NCBI GenBank assembly: GCA_019347945.1
Contig: JAHWKK010000006.1
Coordinates: 1-64,000, forward strand
DNA from: Acidobacteriota bacterium
GTDB taxonomy: Bacteria; Acidobacteriota; Thermoanaerobaculia; Gp7-AA8; JAHWKK01
Direction: 5' to 3'
DNA length: 64,000 nt
Shown: positions 5,360 through 58,879 of the stretch, piece after piece
Position numbering within the stretch: position 1 is the first letter of the stretch
Layout of the letters: each line of letters starts with the position of its first letter
Program-made: the position numbers and the translations under genes
Notes under the pieces: model-generated
What the model was told of the DNA's origin: nothing
Seen by the model: the letters and a program-made list of their open reading frames with translations, nothing else
Databases searched by the model: none

Positions 5360-8300
5360 ATCCGATCCAGGCAGCAATCCGCTATCCCGTCACGACCTCC
5401 GTCGTGATGATTCTCCTCGTTCTTTTCGGCGTGATTTCGCTGACCCGCATCCCTGTTCAGATGACGCCGACGGTCGAGGAGCCGCAGATCAGCGTGTCGA
5501 CGTTCTGGCCGGGAGCCAGTCCGAACGAGATCGAGCGTGAGATCATCGATGAGCAGGAAGATCAGCTCAAGAGCATCGAGGGAGTCGTCCGGATGGAGTC
5601 CTCGAGCCGGGATTCCCGCGGATCGATCACTCTGACCTTCCAGCCGGGAACCGACGTTGATGCCTCGCTTCTGAAGGTTTCCAACGCGCTCGATCAGGTT
5701 CCGTCCTATCCGGTCGACGCGGACAAGCCGGTCATCCAGGTCGTAGGAGAGAATTTCAACGCGATCGCCTGGTTCATCCTTCTTCCCGCGGAAGAGAACC
5801 CGTACGAAGGAACTGTTCCGGACCTGCTGACCTTCGTCGAGGAGTCCGTCAAGCCGGAGTTCGAGCGGGTTCCCGGTGTCGGAGCGATCAATGTCTTCGG
5901 CGGTCAGGAGAACGAGATGCAGGTGATCGTCGATGCGGGAGCACTCGCATCGCGACAGATCACGATTCCCGAACTGATGCGGGCAATCGACCGGGAGAAC
6001 CGGGATTTCTCGGCCGGCGACTTCACCGAGGGGAAAAGGCGCTACGTGGTCCGAACGGTTGGAGAGTACGGATCCCCCGGAGAGATCGAAGAGGTCATCG
6101 TCGCGATTCGAAACGGTGTCCCGATCCAGGTCCGCGACGTCGCGCGGGTCGAGCTGAGTCACTCGAAGCCGATCGCGAGGGCGTTTTACTTCGGCGAACC
6201 GATGATCGCATTCAACGCGGTCCGCGAGTCGGGAGCCAACGTACTCGAGGTGATGGAGGGTCTGAAGCAGACGATGGGAGAGGTCGAGGCCGATCTGCTG
6301 GCGCCCCGGGGCCTTCGGCTCGTGCAGGCCTACGACGAGACGACCTACATTCATTCGGCGATCGACCTGGTCAAGTCGAGCCTTCTGATCGGTGCCTTCC
6401 TCGCGATCGTCGTGCTGCTTCTCTATCTGCGAAGCCGGACGAGCACCCTGATCGTCGCCATCGCGATTCCGATCAGCATCGTCGGAACCTTCCTGATCAT
6501 GTATGCCGCGGGCCGGTCGATCAACGTCATCAGTCTCGCCGGAATGGCATTCGCCGTGGGAATGGTGGTCGACAATTCGATCGTCGTCCTCGAGAACATC
6601 TACAGGCACCGAGAAATGGGGAAGCACCGCTCTCGAGCCGCGCTCGATGGTGCGAAGGAGGTCTGGGGTGCCGTTCTCGCCTCGACGCTCACGACGATCG
6701 CCGTATTTCTGCCGATCTTCTTCATTCAGGACGAGGCCGGGCAGCTCTTCAGAGACATTGCCATCGCCATCTCGGCGGCCGTCTTCCTCAGCATGCTCGT
6801 TTCGATCTCGGTGATCCCGACGCTTTCCGCCCGAATTCTCGGAACGGCCGGGTCGACCGGTTCCGAGCGCTCATTCCGCAATCTCTGGGGATTTTCGCCC
6901 CGATTTGCTTCCGTCCCTGGCTGGATCACCGGCAGAGTCGACTGGATCCTCGAGTCGACGAAACGGAAGATCGCCGTAGTCCTCGTCTTCACGCTCAGCG
7001 CGCTGGCCCTGAGCTACATCCTGACACCTAAGGTCGAATATCTCCCGACGGGAAACCGGAATCTTCTCTTCGGCATCATCCTGCCGAATCCAGGACACAG
7101 CCTCGAGGAAAATACCGAGCTTCGAAATCTCTACGTCGAGGAACTGCAGCATCTCTGGAAGGCGCCCCCGGAAGAGTCGGTGGATCTTCCCGGCGGGGGG
7201 ATCGCCGGCTGGTTTTACGTCGCGTTGAACGACCGCGTCTTCATGGGAGCGCGATCGCGCGACGACCGTCGAGCTCGAGAGCTCCTCGCCGAGTTCCAGC
7301 GAGTCAATGCGAAGGTTCCCGGAGCAATCGCCTTCATGTCGCAATCGAGTCTGTTTCAGCGAGGGTTCGGCCAGGGGCGCAACATCGAAGTCGAGATCGT
7401 CGGTCCCGATCTCGAGCGCCTGATGGAGATCGGCGGTGAAGTGTTCGCCAGCGTCGATCAGGTTCTGCCGGGATCGCAGGCGCGCCCGATTCCCGGACTC
7501 GATCTCGGAAATCCGGAGATTCAGGTCCGGACCGACCGACGGCGAGCCGCCGAAGCGGGGATGACTCACGCGGACCTCGCGGCGACCGTCAACGCACTGG
7601 TGGACGGAGCGCGCGCGAGCGATTACCGTTATCAGGGACAGCAGATCGACCTCCGCGTGATCGGCGAGACCCAGCAGATGGAGCGAACACACCTGATCGA
7701 ACAGATCCCGCTCTCGACTCCGGACGGCGATCTCGTGACCGTCGGTTCGGTCGCTGAGGTCGAGCTCGTCAACGGACCAGCCGAGATCGCGCATCGCGAA
7801 CGGCAACGGTCGGTGACGATCGCGATCACACCGCCCGAGGAAATGCCGCTGCAGGAAGCGATGGAGCTGGTGGAAACCAGGATTCTCGATCCGATCCGCG
7901 ATCGCGGTGAGCTCGGCGGACTCTATCGGGCCCGCATGTCGGGAACCGCGGACAAGCTCACGCAGACCTGGCAGGCCCTGATCTGGAACTTCATCCTCGC
8001 CGTGTTGATCACCTATCTCCTGATGGCAGCACTCTTCGAGAACTTTCTCTATCCCTTCGTCATCCTCTTCACTGTCCCGCTCGCCGCGCTCGGCGGTTTT
8101 CTCGGTCTCGGGTTGATGAACCTCTTCCGGTATCAGGCGCTCGACATCCTGACGATGCTCGGGTTCGTCATTCTCGTCGGTACGGTGGTGAACAACGCCA
8201 TCCTCATCGTTCATCAGACCCTCAACTACATCCGTGACGCGGGGATGGACATTCGCAGCGCCATCACCGAATCGGTGCGAACCCGTGTCCGGCCAATCTT

Positions 8301-17460: not shown

Positions 17461-17562
17461 GCGATCATAAGGTCGCGCGAGCCTCTTCAATCGCGCTTCA
17501 CGAGCTTCCCCGGACACGGGTTCTCTCGGGTTTCGATTTGAGCAACAGCCCGCTGATTCCTG

Positions 17563-17622
17563 GCCCCTGAACCCTAATCCCTGCTCTTCCCCTGATCCCT
17601 GATCCCTGATCCCTGACCCCTG
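17563..17622 (-). repeat. Heptamer array (AGGGATC type), G-quadruplex-like, after typA
   Basis: Tandem units of CCCTGAT on the plus strand, so GGG every seven bases on the typA sense strand, begin 5 nt after the typA stop. At least four GGG runs are separated by 4-nt loops, meeting the canonical intramolecular G-quadruplex rule. The same heptamer recurs at 51745-51789. Confidence 0.7.
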
Positions 17623-25173: not shown

Positions 25174-25297
25174 CAGGAAGTGGCGGGACGGGGTCGACGA
25201 ATGCAACGGTTCTATATCGGAGGCCATATTTAACATAATATATCTTATGAGACACTGCGGAAATCCGCAGGAAACACCAGAAGATCCGGATTTGGAC

Positions 25298-25343
25298 GAG
25301 TCAGACGTGTCCGACAGGTCAGACAGGTCAGACCGTCCGACTC
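25298..25343 (+). repeat. Nonamer-type array (GTCAGAC family), copy 1
   Basis: Repeats of GTCAGAC/GTCCGAC spaced about 9 bp apart (for example AGGTCAGAC twice). The same family occurs at 45509-45548 and 49183-49229. The units are partly self-complementary (GTC...GAC). Confidence 0.6.
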
Positions 25344-27542: not shown

Positions 27543-27548
27543 GGTCGG

Positions 27549-27843
27549 GAAACAGGAGTCAGGAAACAGGATCCAGGAAGCAGGATCCAGGAAACAGGAT
27601 TCAGGAAACAGGATTCAGGATCCAGCGATTCGCGGAAGCTCCAGCTTTCATGAATCGCGATTGAAGAATGAACCGACCTTGTCCTCCCCGGCCGCGAATC
27701 AGACTTCGCGGGAGCGCATTACCGCGCAGGATGCCGTGTCCTGACCCTTGCAATCACTCCTGGCTGCCGGTTTCTGCTGCTTCCTGGATCCTGCTTCCTG
27801 ACTCCTGTTTCCTGACTCCTGGATCCTGTTTCCTGACTCCTGC
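27549..27843. repeat. Inverted pair of CAGGANN heptamer arrays with 155-bp core
   Basis: The left array (27549-27623) has CAGGAAA/CAGGATC/CAGGATT units on the plus strand; the right array (27779-27843) is the same family inverted. Together they could form a long stem around a non-coding core. The right array begins 4 nt after the stop of the bifunctional-nuclease gene. No gene is seen in the 326-bp spacer. Confidence 0.7.
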
Positions 27844-27847
27844 CTCT

Positions 27848-28333
27848 CTACATCTCGTATTTCCCGAAGTCTTCCGGCCGCATCTGCTCGAGCCACTTCT
27901 TCACCGAGTCCTCGGAAGCCTGATCCGGCTTGATCGTCCGGGCCTCGTCGAGCACCGAGCGCGCGACGAAGATCGGAGCCTTCGTCCGCAGAGCGAGCGC
28001 GATCGCGTCGCTCGGGCGGGAATCGATCGTGAGCGAGCGTGACGACGAGTCGATGTGGATCTTCGCGTAGAAGGTGTTCTCGCGAAGGCCGTCGATAACG
28101 ATCCGCGTCACGACCGCCTCGAGCGTCGACAGAACCGACTTCAGCAGATCGTGGGTCATCGGCCTCGGCGTCTCGACACTCTCCAGCTCGAGGGCAATGG
28201 CGTTGGCTTCGAAAATCCCGACCCAGATCGGCAGATACGTCGAATCGGCGTCGTCCTTCAGAACGACAATCGGAGAGTTGGCTACCGGATCGAGCATCAA
28301 TCCCTTGATCGTCATGGCCACTTCTTCACTCAA
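27848..28333 (-). CDS. Bifunctional nuclease (BFN/DUF151) domain protein
   Basis: A 161-aa BFN-domain protein: a GLMLDPVANSPIVVLKD opening, LPIWVGIFEANAIALELE, then SRPSDAIALALR and a short acidic tail. The family is widespread and best known from a plant dual-specificity nuclease; its bacterial role is unclear. Start is TTG 28333, because AGGAG lies about 7 nt upstream and the TTG overlaps the miaB TGA (TTGA). ATG 28315 is the alternative. It is last of a seven-gene coupled cluster. Confidence 0.85.
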   Translation of the reverse strand: MSEEVAMTIKGLMLDPVANSPIVVLKDDADSTYLPIWVGIFEANAIALELESVETPRPMTHDLLKSVLSTLEAVVTRIVIDGLRENTFYAKIHIDSSSRSLTIDSRPSDAIALALRTKAPIFVARSVLDEARTIKPDQASEDSVKKWLEQMRPEDFGKYEM

Positions 28334-34922: not shown

Positions 34923-35014
34923 CGGGGTCGGGTCTGAACTTGGAACTTAACTCCGAAAACGTTTGATCAAGCGCCGCTTTTGGGAGTTAAGTTCCAAGTT
35001 CAGACCCGACCCCG
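34923..35014. repeat. 92-bp REPIN-like palindrome, copy 1
   Basis: Arms 34923-34954 and 34983-35014 are perfect 32-bp inverted repeats (starting CGGGGTCGGGTCTGAAC) around a 28-nt loop. A second copy at 54296-54387 has the same arms except one base pair (T-A here, G-C there) and an unrelated 28-nt loop. This fits a mobile palindrome of the REPIN kind. It lies 10 bp downstream of the bcp stop and could also stop transcription. Confidence 0.85.
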
Positions 35015-35157: not shown

Positions 35158-35327
35158 TCATCCTGAGCAGGTGACCGGCGCCTTGCGCCGGTGAAGCGCA
35201 AATGACATCCGGGCCCAGAAAGGTCCGCACGTGCATACTCAAACCGACGTCATCCCGAGCGGGCGGTCGGGGCGGGCAAGCGAGGGACCTCGCAGGCTGG
35301 GACAGTCGGGCCAAGCGGAGCGCTGAA
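35158..35327 (-). repeat. Dispersed long repeat, copy A (diverged)
   Basis: Shares blocks with copies at 38126, 39553 and 58688: a GCGCCGGTGAAGCG hairpin region, ACTCAAACCGACGTC, CCCGAGCGGGCGGTCGG and GGCAAGCGAGGGACC. Same orientation as copy D, opposite to B and C. The whole 34913-35390 spacer holds repeats only; no gene is seen. Confidence 0.7.
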
Positions 35328-38012: not shown

Positions 38013-38431
38013 GATGAGGCAGGATATGAGGATTTGAGAAAAGGATATGAGGATTTGAGGATTTGAGGATCACCGCCTTCCGGAGTGAAGAGGCATCTTT
38101 GAGGCTCACAAATCGCGTCGATTCCGCGAGCCACCGCCCAGATCCTTCGCCGTCCTTCGGCGGCTCCTAATGAAACGACCACGAAATTGCGTGGACTTCG
38201 ACCTTTTGCAGCGCTTCGCTTGGCCTGATGTCCCAGCCTGCAGGGTCCCTCGCTTGCCCACCCGACCGCCCGCTCGGGACGACGTCGGTTTTGAGTAGGG
38301 GGTGCGGAGTTTTGCGGGCTCCGGTTTTCATTCCCGCTTCACCGCTCAACGCGCCGGTCAATTGCTCAGGATGACGAGTGCTTGCTCGTGCCGGCCCGAT
38401 CCTTAAATCCTCAAATCCTTACATCCTCATA
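38013..38431. repeat. Composite repeat B: inverted AGGATNTG arrays around a 264-bp core
   Basis: The left array (38013-38070) of AGGATATG/AGGATTTG units follows the membrane-protein stop. The core (38126-38389) is nearly identical to copy C (39553-39815) and carries a CCACGAAATTGCGTGG hairpin. The right array (38399-38431) is inverted (TCCTCAAATCC) and supplies the last codons and stop of mtgA. No gene is seen in it. Confidence 0.75.
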
Positions 38432-39372
38432 GCCTTGTCATCCGGCGGTTCTTCGGGATTCTCTTCCCCTTCCGGAGGGAGGGGCTCGGCGGGTTCGAGA
38501 GGTTCGACCGGCTCATCCTCTTCGACAGGCGGTTGCTCTTCCACCGGTTGCTCCTCGGTTTCCACGGCGGGTTCTTCGCCGCTCGTTTCGACATCCGGGA
38601 GCATGGATTCTTCGGGCGTGACGTCGTCGGCCGATTCCGTGGTTTCCGATTCCTCGATTTCCGCCTCGCTCTCAACGCGACGATCGGCGATGTAGCCCCA
38701 GCGCTGCATCCTGGAGACGATGATGTCCCGACGGGATTGAAGATACGGTCCCGGATTTCCCGGGTTCATCTTTCGCGGATTCGGCAGACTTGCAGCGAGC
38801 AGTGCCGCCTGCGACGGTGAGAGCGACGAGGCGGGGACTCCGAAATAGTGCCAGGCGGCCGCTTCCGCTCCGTAAACTCTCTCACCCATCTCGACGACGT
38901 TGAGGTAGAGCTCGAGAATCCGTTTCTTGGAAAGCTTCCGCTCGAGCTGTTTCGCGATGAGGAGCTCCTTGAGCTTCCTCCAGGGAGATCGGGAGGGTGA
39001 CAGATAGAGATTCTTCGCGAGCTGCTGCGTGATCGTCGACCCTCCCCGGCCGAGACTCTTCTTCTCCCACGCTTCCCGTGCGACCTTTTCGAGCTCTTCG
39101 GTATCGAGCCCTTCATGCTCGTAGAAGCGGCTGTCCTCCGAAACGATGACGGCGGCCCGGAGATTCGGAGAGATCCGATCCCACGGGACGAAGCGGTAAT
39201 CGAGCTCGTCGGACTTCCCCGCATCCCGCAGCTCTTCCTTCCGCTGCTCCATGAATGCCGTCGTTTCGGGATTCGTGGTGGCCAGTTTGCCCACCCGCGA
39301 GAAGGTGATCAGCTGCCAGAGGAGAAACACCCCGAGAATGGCACCCAACGCGATCAGAACTTTCTTGAGCAT
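38419..39372 (-). CDS. mtgA: Monofunctional peptidoglycan transglycosylase (GT51)
   Basis: A 317-aa protein with an N-terminal transmembrane anchor (VLIALGAILGVFLLWQLITF) and a GT51 glycosyltransferase domain: VSEDSRFYEHEG (catalytic Glu), GGSTITQQLAKNLYLSP, KRILELYLNVVEMG, and AALLAASLPNPRKMNP. It polymerises lipid II in the periplasm. Residues about 234-317 are an unusual Glu/Pro-rich acidic tail whose final Met-Arg-Met-stop is encoded by a tandem-repeat array. Composite repeats B and C flank the gene as direct repeats. Confidence 0.92.
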   Translation of the reverse strand: MLKKVLIALGAILGVFLLWQLITFSRVGKLATTNPETTAFMEQRKEELRDAGKSDELDYRFVPWDRISPNLRAAVIVSEDSRFYEHEGLDTEELEKVAREAWEKKSLGRGGSTITQQLAKNLYLSPSRSPWRKLKELLIAKQLERKLSKKRILELYLNVVEMGERVYGAEAAAWHYFGVPASSLSPSQAALLAASLPNPRKMNPGNPGPYLQSRRDIIVSRMQRWGYIADRRVESEAEIEESETTESADDVTPEESMLPDVETSGEEPAVETEEQPVEEQPPVEEDEPVEPLEPAEPLPPEGEENPEEPPDDKAMRM

Positions 39373-39476
39373 TTCCTAGCGCCTCCGTCAGCGAAGCCGA
39401 TGCACGGACCGGACCCCATTCGCTGAAGTTCGAATTGAGCGAGTTTGATCGCTCTGCCCGTCGTCTTTGTGAGAGA

Positions 39477-39930
39477 AGGATATGAGGATGTAAGGATTTG
39501 AGGATCACCGCCCTCTGGAGTGAACCGAAGAAGAATCCGGTACTGGCGTTTCGCGAGCCACCGCCCAGATCCTTCGCCGCGCTACGCCGGCTCCTGATGA
39601 AACGACCACGAAATTGCGTGGACTTCGACCTTTTGCAGCGCTTCGCTTGGCCTGATGTCCCACCCTGCAAGGTCCCTCGCTTGCCCACCCGACCGCCCGC
39701 TCGGGACGACGCCGGTTTGAGTATGGGGTGCGGAGTTTTGCGGGCTCGGTTTTCATTTCCGCTTCACCGGCGCAACGCGCCGGTCAATTGCTCAGGATGA
39801 CGAGTGTTTGCTCGTCCCTGGACCGATCCTACATCCCCCACATCCTGAATACTCACCCTCTTCCATCCTTAAATCCTGAAATCTTCATATCCTTTCCTCA
39901 CATCCTCATATCCTCACATCCTCATATCCT
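39477..39930. repeat. Composite repeat C: second copy, direct to B
   Basis: Left array 39477-39505, core 39553-39815 (almost the same as 38126-38389), right inverted array 39826-39930, longer than in B. The 39373-39997 spacer otherwise holds only the mtgA and metG upstream regions; no gene is seen. Confidence 0.75.
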
Positions 39931-39997
39931 TTTCACAGCAATACGTCGCTTTCTCACCCGGTTAGGGTAAATTCGCGGCCAGCCGGAACGACGCACC

Positions 39998-45508: not shown

Positions 45509-45548
45509 GGTCGGACAGTCGGACCTGTCAGACATGTCTGAAGTCTGC
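45509..45548 (+). repeat. Nonamer-type array (GTCAGAC family), copy 2
   Basis: GTCGGAC/GTCAGAC units spaced about 9 bp begin at the first base after the gspE TGA and run to the GNAT stop region; related to arrays at 25298 and 49183. Confidence 0.65.
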
Positions 45549-45550
45549 CT

Positions 45551-46075
45551 TCAGCTTCCCGGATAGATGTACAGATCGACCACGATCTCCGGCATCCGAT
45601 GCCCGATCTCTTCTCCGGTGACGCGCCGGTCGTACGCCATCCCGAGACGCTCCGCGACCCGCTTCGATGCCACGTTCTCCGGATCGATGATCGCCACAAC
45701 CCTCGGCTTTCGCATCACCTCGAGCACGTGATCCCTCGCCGCCCTCCCCGCCTCGGTTGCGAATCCCCTTCCCCAGGCGTCGCGCGAAAAGATCCAGCCG
45801 ATCTCGAAGTCCTCCGTGGTTCCGAGGCGCTGGATGCCGGCGATTCCGACGAGCCTTCCCGTCGCCTTCTCGATCGTCGCGCCCATGCAGACGCCGTCAT
45901 CGCCGAGGTTGCGCGTCTGCCGCTCGAGAAATTCGGTGACCTTCTGCTCATCCCACCCCCCCGCCTGGCTGAGGTAGCGCATCACCTCGCCGTCGCTCGT
46001 AATCTCGACGAGAGCTGGACGATCTTCCTCGTTCCACGGCCGAATCGTGAGCCTTTCTGTTTCCAGCCCGAACAT
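45551..46075 (-). CDS. GNAT N-acetyltransferase, RimJ/RimL type
   Basis: A 174-aa acetyltransferase. LETERLTIRPW opens the fold, GIAGIQRL is a core strand, IGWIFSRDAWGRGFATEA is the acetyl-CoA pyrophosphate loop, and ENVASKRVAERLGM follows. The acceptor could be a ribosomal protein, other N-terminus or a small molecule. Start ATG 46075 is fixed by TATGCT 7 nt upstream; an upstream in-frame ATG (46087) overlaps that element. Confidence 0.88.
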   Translation of the reverse strand: MFGLETERLTIRPWNEEDRPALVEITSDGEVMRYLSQAGGWDEQKVTEFLERQTRNLGDDGVCMGATIEKATGRLVGIAGIQRLGTTEDFEIGWIFSRDAWGRGFATEAGRAARDHVLEVMRKPRVVAIIDPENVASKRVAERLGMAYDRRVTGEEIGHRMPEIVVDLYIYPGS

Positions 46076-46082
46076 GCGGGAA

Positions 46083-46088
46083 AGCATA
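46083..46088 (-). promoter_or_regulatory. Putative -10 (TATGCT) for the GNAT gene
   Basis: TATGCT ends 7 nt before ATG 46075. It is contiguous with an AGGATNTG array on its upstream side. Confidence 0.5.
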
Positions 46089-46117
46089 TGAGGATATGAG
46101 GATTTGAGGATATGAGA
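46087..46117 (+). repeat. AGGATNTG array upstream of the GNAT gene
   Basis: Three to four AGGATATG/AGGATTTG units, the same family as in composite repeats B and C. Confidence 0.65.
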
Positions 46118-46218
46118 GACAGAAATACGGCAGCTGGGAGCACGGGGCAAACCAACCTCCAACCTCGAACGGCCGCGTCGCGGCCCCGGGGTCGGGTTTT
46201 TGCACCTGCGAACCCCCA

Positions 46219-49124: not shown

Positions 49125-49182
49125 ACCAGCGGCGTCTCGTCCGATGAGAAAGCGCCGGTGGAGTGGCTCAATCGCCATGCGT

Positions 49183-49229
49183 TGTCGGACCTGTCAGACG
49201 TGTCAGACCTGTCGGACCCGTCAGACCTG
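49183..49229 (+). repeat. Nonamer-type array (GTCAGAC family), copy 3
   Basis: Five GTCAGAC/GTCGGAC units at 9-bp spacing (CTGTCAGAC, GTGTCAGAC, CTGTCGGAC, CCGTCAGAC) between the oxidoreductase start and the DUF547 stop. Confidence 0.7.
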
Positions 49230-49267
49230 GGCCGCACCTTCATCCGACGGCAGAGTGATTCGAGTCG

Positions 49268-51609: not shown

Positions 51610-51744
51610 GATGCCGATCCGGATTTCTCCGCTTTTCGTTCGATTTCAGCAAGCCGACATTTGCGCGAGTATGTGACGGGGCGGCTCGGCAGGAGCCTCG
51701 CCCTCCCAGAGGATGCGGAACGGGCGCACAGAGTTCACTTCCTC

Positions 51745-51789
51745 CAATCCCTGATCCCTGATCCCTGATCCCTGATCCCTAATCCCTAA
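51745..51789 (-). repeat. Heptamer array (AGGGATC type), G-quadruplex-like, at the EamA stop
   Basis: Six near-perfect CCCTGAT/CCCTAAT units on the plus strand. On the EamA sense strand GGG recurs every 7 nt with 4-nt loops. The array supplies the gene's TAG stop (in GATTAGGG). Same family as 17563-17622. Confidence 0.75.
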
Positions 51790-53355: not shown

Positions 53356-53449
53356 TCGACCCGACGTGACCTTCTCCGCGCAAATCTCATCGGATCGACA
53401 CGATGACGCCACAATCGAGCTTCATACTTCCGATTGTGGAGGTGACACT

Positions 53450-54310
53450 TTGAGAAGAACCTGCGTAGCCGCTTCGATCCTGATCGCGCTGGCCGTCCCG
53501 CTGACTGGCGACGACCCTGCTTCGTGGACCCAGCCGGTCGAGCCATTTCGCGTCATCGGCAACGTCTGGTACGTCGGAACTGCCGACCTCACCTCGTGGC
53601 TCATCACGAGCCGGGAGGGTCACATCCTGATCGACGCTCCGATGGAGGAGAACGTCTCTCATATTCTCGGTGCGATCAGGAAGCTCGGATTTGATCCGCG
53701 CGACGTCGAGATCATGCTCAACAGTCACGCACACTACGACCACGCCGGCGGTTTCGCCAGGATGAAGGAGGCGACGGGAGCACGTCTGCTCGTTTCGGAG
53801 GCGGATGCCAGGCTCATCGAAAGCGGTGGAAGAGGTGATTTCGCCTTCGGCGACGACGCTACATTCCCTCCGGTAAAGGTCGACGGATTCGTCCTCGACG
53901 AGGAGGTGATCGAGCTCGGAGGCGTTCGCCTCACCGCGATGGCGACACCCGGCCACACGAAAGGAAGCACGAGCTGGCTTCTCGATGTCGTCGAAGTAGG
54001 AAAGAAGTACCGGGTCCTCTTCGCGAACAGCCTCTCCGCTCCTGGTTACCGGCTGGTCGGCAACGACAGCTATCCGGAGATCATCGAAGACTATCGACGA
54101 AGCTTCGAACGGCTCGGATCGGTCGACGCGGACGTCCTTCTGACCACGCACGGCAGCTTCATCCAGCTTCAGCGCAAGATCGAGGCGATGAAGGCCGGCG
54201 GTCCGAATCCCTTCATCGACCCGGCCGCCACGAAGAGCTACGTCGAGCGGTGGAGACTCCGCTTCGAGGAAGAGCTCGCGAGGCAGAGAAAAGCGCGGGG
54301 TCGGGTCTGA
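53450..54310 (+). CDS. Subclass B3-like metallo-beta-lactamase
   Basis: A 286-aa exported metallo-hydrolase. A signal peptide (AASILIALAVPLTG) precedes the domain. B3 zinc ligands are present: His93, His95, Asp97, His98 (NSHAHYDHAGG), His169 (PGHTKGS) and His234 (TTHGSF). The EPFRVIGNVWYVGTADLTSW opening is strongly B3-like. Start is TTG 53450, with a GGAGGTGA ribosome site 7 nt upstream. It may hydrolyse beta-lactams in the periplasm. Its last codons and stop are encoded by the left arm of a 92-bp palindromic repeat. Confidence 0.88.
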   Translation: MRRTCVAASILIALAVPLTGDDPASWTQPVEPFRVIGNVWYVGTADLTSWLITSREGHILIDAPMEENVSHILGAIRKLGFDPRDVEIMLNSHAHYDHAGGFARMKEATGARLLVSEADARLIESGGRGDFAFGDDATFPPVKVDGFVLDEEVIELGGVRLTAMATPGHTKGSTSWLLDVVEVGKKYRVLFANSLSAPGYRLVGNDSYPEIIEDYRRSFERLGSVDADVLLTTHGSFIQLQRKIEAMKAGGPNPFIDPAATKSYVERWRLRFEEELARQRKARGRV

Positions 54311-54387
54311 ACTTGGAACTTAACGCCCGGAATATCCCGGCTTTCGACCAATTTCGGCGTTAAGTTCCAAGTTCAGACCCGACCCCG
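54296..54387. repeat. 92-bp REPIN-like palindrome, copy 2
   Basis: Perfect 32-bp arms (54296-54327, 54356-54387) around a 28-nt loop. The arms match copy 1 (34923-35014) except one paired change (G-C versus T-A), while the loops are unrelated. The left arm overlaps the 3' end of the metallo-beta-lactamase gene and supplies its TGA. Confidence 0.85.
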
Positions 54388-58523: not shown

Positions 58524-58879
58524 CGCCGAGGCTGCGATGCGGGAGCGGGGCCAAATGCGGGGCGCGACATTTTTCCAGCCCGCGTCATCCCGAGCCATTT
58601 GAACGAAGCTACGCCCCGGTTAAGCGGGAATGAACGCGAGATGCGCCGGAGAAAGGGCGATGTTGGGTCGGCGCTTCGCTGGGCATGACCTTGCGCCGGT
58701 GAAGCGGGAATGAAAACCGGAGCCCGCAAAACTCCGCACCCCATACTCAAACCGACGTCGTCCCGAGCGGGCGGTCGGGCGGGCAAGCGAGGGACCTTGC
58801 AGGGTGGGACATCAGGCCAAGCGAAGCGCTGCAAAAGGCTGCCACTTCATTCCGAGCCGAGGCTACGTCCGCGGTGCGG
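58524..58879. other. Repeat-bearing spacer
   Basis: This 356-bp gap holds repeat copy D (58688-58838) and fragments of the same family (GCGTCATCCCGAGCC; TTAAGCGGGAATGAA). No gene is supported. Confidence 0.6.
58688..58838 (-). repeat. Dispersed long repeat, copy D
   Basis: Inverse-orientation copy of the B/C core: TTGCGCCGGTGAAGCGGG, CCCGCAAAACTCCGCACCCC, ACTCAAACCGACGTCG, GGCAAGCGAGGGACCTTGC and CAAGCGAAGCGCTGCAAAAG all match. It has no flanking tandem arrays here. Confidence 0.75.

Follow-up and report, generated by a model that had tools for sequence, protein, structure and literature searches.

Arm-conserved, loop-variable palindromes at gene 3' ends in an Acidobacteriota genome: probable dimers of TIRYT-type terminal inverted repeats

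Two palindromes with identical arms and dissimilar loops are present in the window (the whole stretch of 64,000 nucleotides analyzed here), and they raise the question as to what kind of element they are and how it came to be dispersed. The dimensions previously proposed for them (a total length of 92 bp, perfect arms of 32 bp, and a 28-nt loop in both copies) and all their coordinates were confirmed (Table 1). These palindromes are not the product of chance: the arm sequence occurs at four places in the window, all of them belonging to the two palindromes, and at none in 100 dinucleotide-preserving shuffles, and each palindrome folds as single-stranded DNA into one long hairpin (-44.0 kcal/mol in the case of copy 1 and -43.5 kcal/mol in that of copy 2; z = -13.7 and -12.7, respectively). 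In our reading, to which we assign a probability of roughly 0.87, they are non-autonomous, REPIN-like TIR dimers, that is, two terminal inverted repeats of the TIRYT type (RAYT-like, HuH/Y1) placed in inverted orientation on either side of a short spacer that diverges freely. They are presumably moved in trans by a Y1 transposase.

Table 1. Positions of the two palindromes in the window and of the non-intact copies elsewhere in the genome
Feature	Position	Strand	Description
Palindrome copy 1	34923..35014	.	92 bp, flanked by the peroxiredoxin gene and, in convergent orientation, a peptidase S51 gene
Copy 1 left arm	34923..34951	+	29-bp family core CGGGGTCGGGTCTGAACTTGGAACTTAAC
Copy 1 right arm	34986..35014	-	29-bp family core, inverted
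Copy 1 variable loop	34952..34985	.	34 nt between the core arms; edge bases still pair
Palindrome copy 2	54296..54387	.	92 bp, flanked by the metallo-beta-lactamase-fold gene and, in convergent orientation, an SPFH/Band 7 gene
Copy 2 left arm	54296..54324	+	29-bp family core
Copy 2 right arm	54359..54387	-	29-bp family core, inverted
Copy 2 variable loop	54325..54358	.	82% identity with the C3:223230 loop
Coding part of copy 2 arm	54296..54310	+	Encodes the C-terminal tetrapeptide RGRV and the TGA stop; gene 53366-54310 (metallo-beta-lactamase fold)
Non-intact palindrome	C1:303808		Left arm damaged
Non-intact palindrome	C31:34157		Degraded
Non-intact palindrome	C49/C19		Split over two contigs
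Non-intact palindrome	C26		Cut by the contig end

The peroxiredoxin stop codon precedes the start of copy 1 by 10 bp. Copy 2 was rightly said in the earlier note to supply the stop of the metallo-beta-lactamase gene, since the palindrome provides the four final codons together with the TGA. As the homologues of this gene stop at about the same place, it has not been truncated by copy 2. Other repeats also occur in the window. A dispersed repeat a few hundred bases long, the copies of which are up to 95-98% alike, was found in both orientations at 38122-38429, 39549-39855, 58697-58838, and 35234-35304; about 220 bp downstream of copy 1 there is a fragment of it. Near this repeat, units of 8 bases (for example AGGATTTG/AGGATATG) form arrays between genes, at 38019-38078, 39467-39513, and 46073-46119, and at 38399-38443 and 39849-39938. 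Further tandem arrays were detected at 17547-17622 and 51738-51788, at 27544-27625 together with 27771-27851, and at 25285-25343, 45518-45541, and 49178-49236; their units consist of 7 bases (TGATCCC), 7 or 14 bases (mutually inverted at 27.5-27.9 kb), and 9 bases (GTCAGACCT).

The genome carrying the window (3.72 Mb in 49 contigs, 99.65% complete) contains many more of these elements. A 27-nt core of the arm, with up to three mismatches, matched the genome 42 times, 21 on each strand, the reversed control giving no match. Genome-wide, these matches make up about 21 palindromes, 17 of which are intact, so that the search with the arm sequence proposed in the earlier note extended the family beyond the two copies in the window. 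A few half copies occur besides these palindromes. Decayed copies are not numerous: a covariance model scored 17 copies at 86-102 bits, the scores then dropping to 61 bits. When up to three mismatches were allowed, no arm was found in the 60 relatives searched, the nearest genomes compared belonging to another taxonomic family; the exact arm had no match in GTDB contigs or viral contigs, nor did the 92-mer in plasmids.

Some local peculiarities were noted at individual sites. In the palindrome on contig C49 (L050, about 5904-5960), the flank and the outer arm are tandemly duplicated, a GTATGGGGAGACGGGGTCGGGTC-like unit occurring twice in a row. On C4, a half-palindrome lies about 1.5 kb from a full copy (C4:61109 and C4:62639; L042 4110 and 5640) and has a nearly identical loop end, which suggests a local duplication. 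A second palindrome family was found by the covariance model, with two copies at C3:25800 and C3:109298 (L232 799-897 and L233 797-895) and one half copy at C11:12298: its arms (GGGGACAGGTGAGAACTTCG[G/C]GAACTTCAC) have a start that fits the TIRYT motif GGGGWSAS, and its 33-nt loops are nearly identical.

The arms and the loops of the main family show different degrees of conservation. Family-wide, the conserved arm is 29 bp long (CGGGGTCGGGTCTGAACTTGGAACTTAAC), and most of its columns are invariant in the 17 copies. The covarying pair noticed between the two window copies (T-A versus G-C) is real, but it is pair 30, at the edge of the loop, and the stem does not depend on it: of 16 copies, only 11 keep Watson-Crick pairing at pair 30, 12 at pair 31, and 11 at pair 32. 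Paired changes are also present within the arm, from T-A to A-T at position 18 in the C14 and C40 copies and from T-A to C-G at position 13 in the C8 copy. The core arms of the intact copies enclose loops of 34-35 nt, the mean identity of which is 56% in the better orientation; 36% of all loop pairs give p < 0.01 versus shuffled loops, and the nearest-neighbour identity ranges from 57 to 88%, the closest pairs being C14/C40 (88%, inverted) and C3/C6b (82%). Based on these comparisons, the loops of the family are diverged homologues, occurring in either orientation. The two window loops, which had been described as equal in length and unrelated, are indeed not individually recognizable as mutual relatives, but they belong to this homologous set, and each of them has a recognizable relative elsewhere in the genome. 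Since the C14 and C40 copies share both an arm variant and a loop, the unit is copied whole. In the close pairs C14/C40 and C3/C6b no arm change was observed, versus about 7 and 10 expected at the loop rate (P = 7e-4 and 1e-5, respectively), which indicates that the arms evolve more slowly than the loops. This difference may be due to selection or homogenization, to the exclusive copying of units with intact ends, or to additional mutation of the loop.

The search for a Y1 transposase with the same palindrome beside it, as suggested in the earlier note, gave a divided answer: no transposase gene between exactly these arms (GGGGTCGGGTCTGAAC ends) is present in the 99.65% complete assembly, but an intact relative with related ends was identified on contig C31. 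The remnants on C4, C5, C10, C31, C37, and C38 were rejected as the cognate transposase, none of them having the palindrome ends. The C31 gene is an intact open frame encoding 348 aa, with a Y1_Tnp domain above the Pfam cut-off, and the protein scores 72.3 bits against the NCBIfam model of the REP-associated tyrosine transposase, just under the cut-off of 80. It carries HYH at 62-64, Y121 followed by N125, and a C-terminal extension of about 180 residues including a helix-turn-helix-like sequence, for which no Pfam HTH match was obtained; it thus has the HuH motif, the one catalytic tyrosine, and the C-terminal extension of TnpAREP subclass 2.1. The best transposase match in a named genome is that of an Acidobacteria MAG (57%). 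Imperfect inverted repeats (GGGGTCAAACCTCGAATCTTAACTTAACG type) lie on both sides of the C31 gene, and similar ones flank its decayed relative on C4. The C31 ends and the palindrome arm are both 28 nt long, start with GGGGTC, and have AACTTAAC at the inner end; they differ between these two parts, only about 18 of the 28 positions being matched. The cognate enzyme may have been lost; it may be unassembled, since C26 ends inside a palindrome and a small contig is therefore possibly missing; or the C31 enzyme may fill its role by acting on related ends. A second TIRYT group in this genome (C7, C1, and C38) has a different end type, GGGGCCACACCTTCG. This group (L148, L149, and L152) includes several copies and remnants, and the flanks of its genes carry tandem-like clusters of CGAAGGTGTGGCCC/GGGCCAGACCTTCG.

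Closer associations between gene and arms were found in other genomes. In G002, which belongs to the same order as the window genome, a transposase gene (55% identical) lies between GGGGTCACACCTGGAAAATCAACTTAAC arms, the downstream one differing by one base; the same arms form about 23 dispersed palindromes, and a further palindrome arm lies a few tens of bases beyond. The G002 arm and its outer flank fold into a stem-loop of their own, whereas a single arm of the present family alone forms no hairpin (-0.6 kcal/mol, z = 0.2), so that both forms exist within one order. In G004, another genome of this order, the transposase gene lies between palindromes with GGGGTCAGGTCTGAAGTTGAAAGTGAC arms, about 18 palindromes were found by the model, and arm variants mostly have a counterpart on the opposite side. 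The families of G002 and G004 thus each have a cognate gene between the same ends as their dispersed arms, but none is present for ours in the assembly of the window genome. In G016, the ends of the gene are closely related, though not identical, to the dispersed palindrome arms. Among the loci of named genomes, which cover many phyla, flanking inverted repeats were detected in 42 of the 52 testable cases, versus 1 with shuffled flanks. The repeats in these 42 cases mostly start with GGGGTCAGGTCT, the arm of our palindromes starting with GGGGTCGGGTCT. When a matrix built from the foreign termini was applied to 127,978 window positions, it picked out the four palindrome arms alone.

The dispersal of TIR dimers of this kind can be pictured as follows. 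In the single-stranded state, for example on the lagging-strand template, the arms would form a hairpin, the GGGGTC-type ends of which would be recognized by a Y1 transposase provided in trans and nicked by means of its tyrosine at the GGGG edge; the TIRYT would then join the unit at a new site. The insertions would tend to persist near the 3' ends of genes, where the arms provide TGA and TAA stops. The loop would subsequently drift while the arms stay fixed, because only units with intact, self-complementary ends would be copied, and perhaps also because the resident copies are useful or homogenized. Several points count against this explanation: no assembled transposase gene has exactly these arms, the C31 ends agree with the arm at only about 18 of 28 positions, and the identity of the arms among copies with very different loops exceeds that accounted for by recent copying alone.

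In a rival explanation, the palindromes are now used by the host as RNA hairpins at 3' ends (mRNA stabilizers or two-way 3' boundaries), their arms being under purifying selection and mobility being their origin only. Based on genes predicted by a simple codon-usage gene caller, nine sites are convergent, nine are tandem, and none lies between divergent genes; 14 of 18 copies overlap a predicted stop codon or lie within 30 bp of one, and the predicted gene end falls inside the palindrome in six copies. Such locations fit the mobile-element explanation but would also be in keeping with a host function, as would the unchanged arms of the close pairs and the scarcity of decayed copies. However, placement at 3' ends is common to REPs generally and can be explained simply by where insertion is tolerated (PMC3733652); in addition, the gene neighbours vary between copies, the family was not found in the 60 relatives, no T run follows the hairpin at either window copy, and no Rfam match was obtained at gathering thresholds anywhere in the window. 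We therefore regard this host function as unlikely. The possibility of an RNA gene was rejected on the basis of the Rfam result. It is also doubtful whether the resident arms are actively kept identical genome-wide, by host selection or by hairpin-to-hairpin sequence correction, with the loop changing many times faster, which would make this an orphan family without a transposase persisting as fixed 3'-end hairpins, beyond mobility.

Other sources of mobility than a TIRYT were also considered. The small IS200-like Y1 genes at C8:405-740 (L031) and C5:112637-112972 (L032), which are perhaps class 3 TnpAY1 genes as described in Acidobacteria, might move the palindromes, since the end of the C5 domain match is about 310 bp away from a solitary half-palindrome. 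However, no arm is present beside the C8 gene, the protein fits the IS200/IS605 model and not the RAYT model, and another repeat (CTGTCGCCCGC...GCGGGC and CTGTCCCCCGGCTGAAGCCGGGG) surrounds both genes; because they carry other repeats, they are a very improbable source. MITEs of ordinary DDE insertion sequences resemble the palindromes in being short, non-coding elements with inverted ends and many copies, which are thought to be mobilized in trans, but the termini here are those of a Y1 element, and no target-site duplication was detected (0-1 nt in 17 copies), which led us to reject an origin of this kind as scarcely credible. As regards the classical GTAG-type REPINs or BIMEs moved by a RAYT, the plan is much the same: the REPINs of Pseudomonas fluorescens SBW25 are likewise extragenic inverted doublets forming one hairpin, with conserved ends, a fixed-length, variable and less conserved spacer, and compensatory changes (PMC3116915). 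These features of a REPIN are found in our palindromes, but about 21 copies are present here versus hundreds in SBW25, and the termini fit the TIRYT consensus; since a single arm has neither a stem-loop nor a GTAG tag, it falls outside the definition of a REP, and membership of the classical type is most improbable. The proposal made in the earlier note, that the palindromes are REPINs moved in trans by an IS200-like RAYT, therefore holds in one respect: Y1 (RAYT-like) movement is well supported by the number of copies and by the same kind of arm flanking such genes here and in relatives. The elements themselves are TIRYT TIR dimers and not GTAG REPINs.

Several families of TIR-dimer palindromes thus occur in one bacterial order (in the window genome, G002, G004, and G016), and in two of them (those of G002 and G004) the dispersed arms are the very ones that enclose the transposase gene. 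This order therefore constitutes a compact system for testing whether TIR dimers are copied by Y1 proteins of this class, and it is also suited to measuring why the loops drift while the arms stay fixed.

TIRtrons, TIRYTs, and TIR dimers were described by Di Nocera et al. (2013; PMC3733652), and the TIRYTs named at that time were judged to be probably less productive than RAYTs. They have since been equated with TnpAREP subclass 2.1 (PMC6006769), beside the genes of which no REP-like sequences were found in the 2018 survey, where further analysis was called for (PMC6006769). The TIRYT/TIRtron system combines a Y1 transposase having a long C-terminal part with GGGGWSAS inverted repeats and with dispersed TIR repeats, many of which are dimers (PMC3733652), and the same combination is seen here, apart from the fact that the palindrome arm (GGGGTCGG) is one base off the strict GGGGWSAS motif and that no assembled gene has the exact ends. 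With arms matching the TIRYT ends and some 21 dispersed inverted dimers, the palindromes very probably form a family of TIRYT TIR dimers, a kind of element which has been described but little studied.
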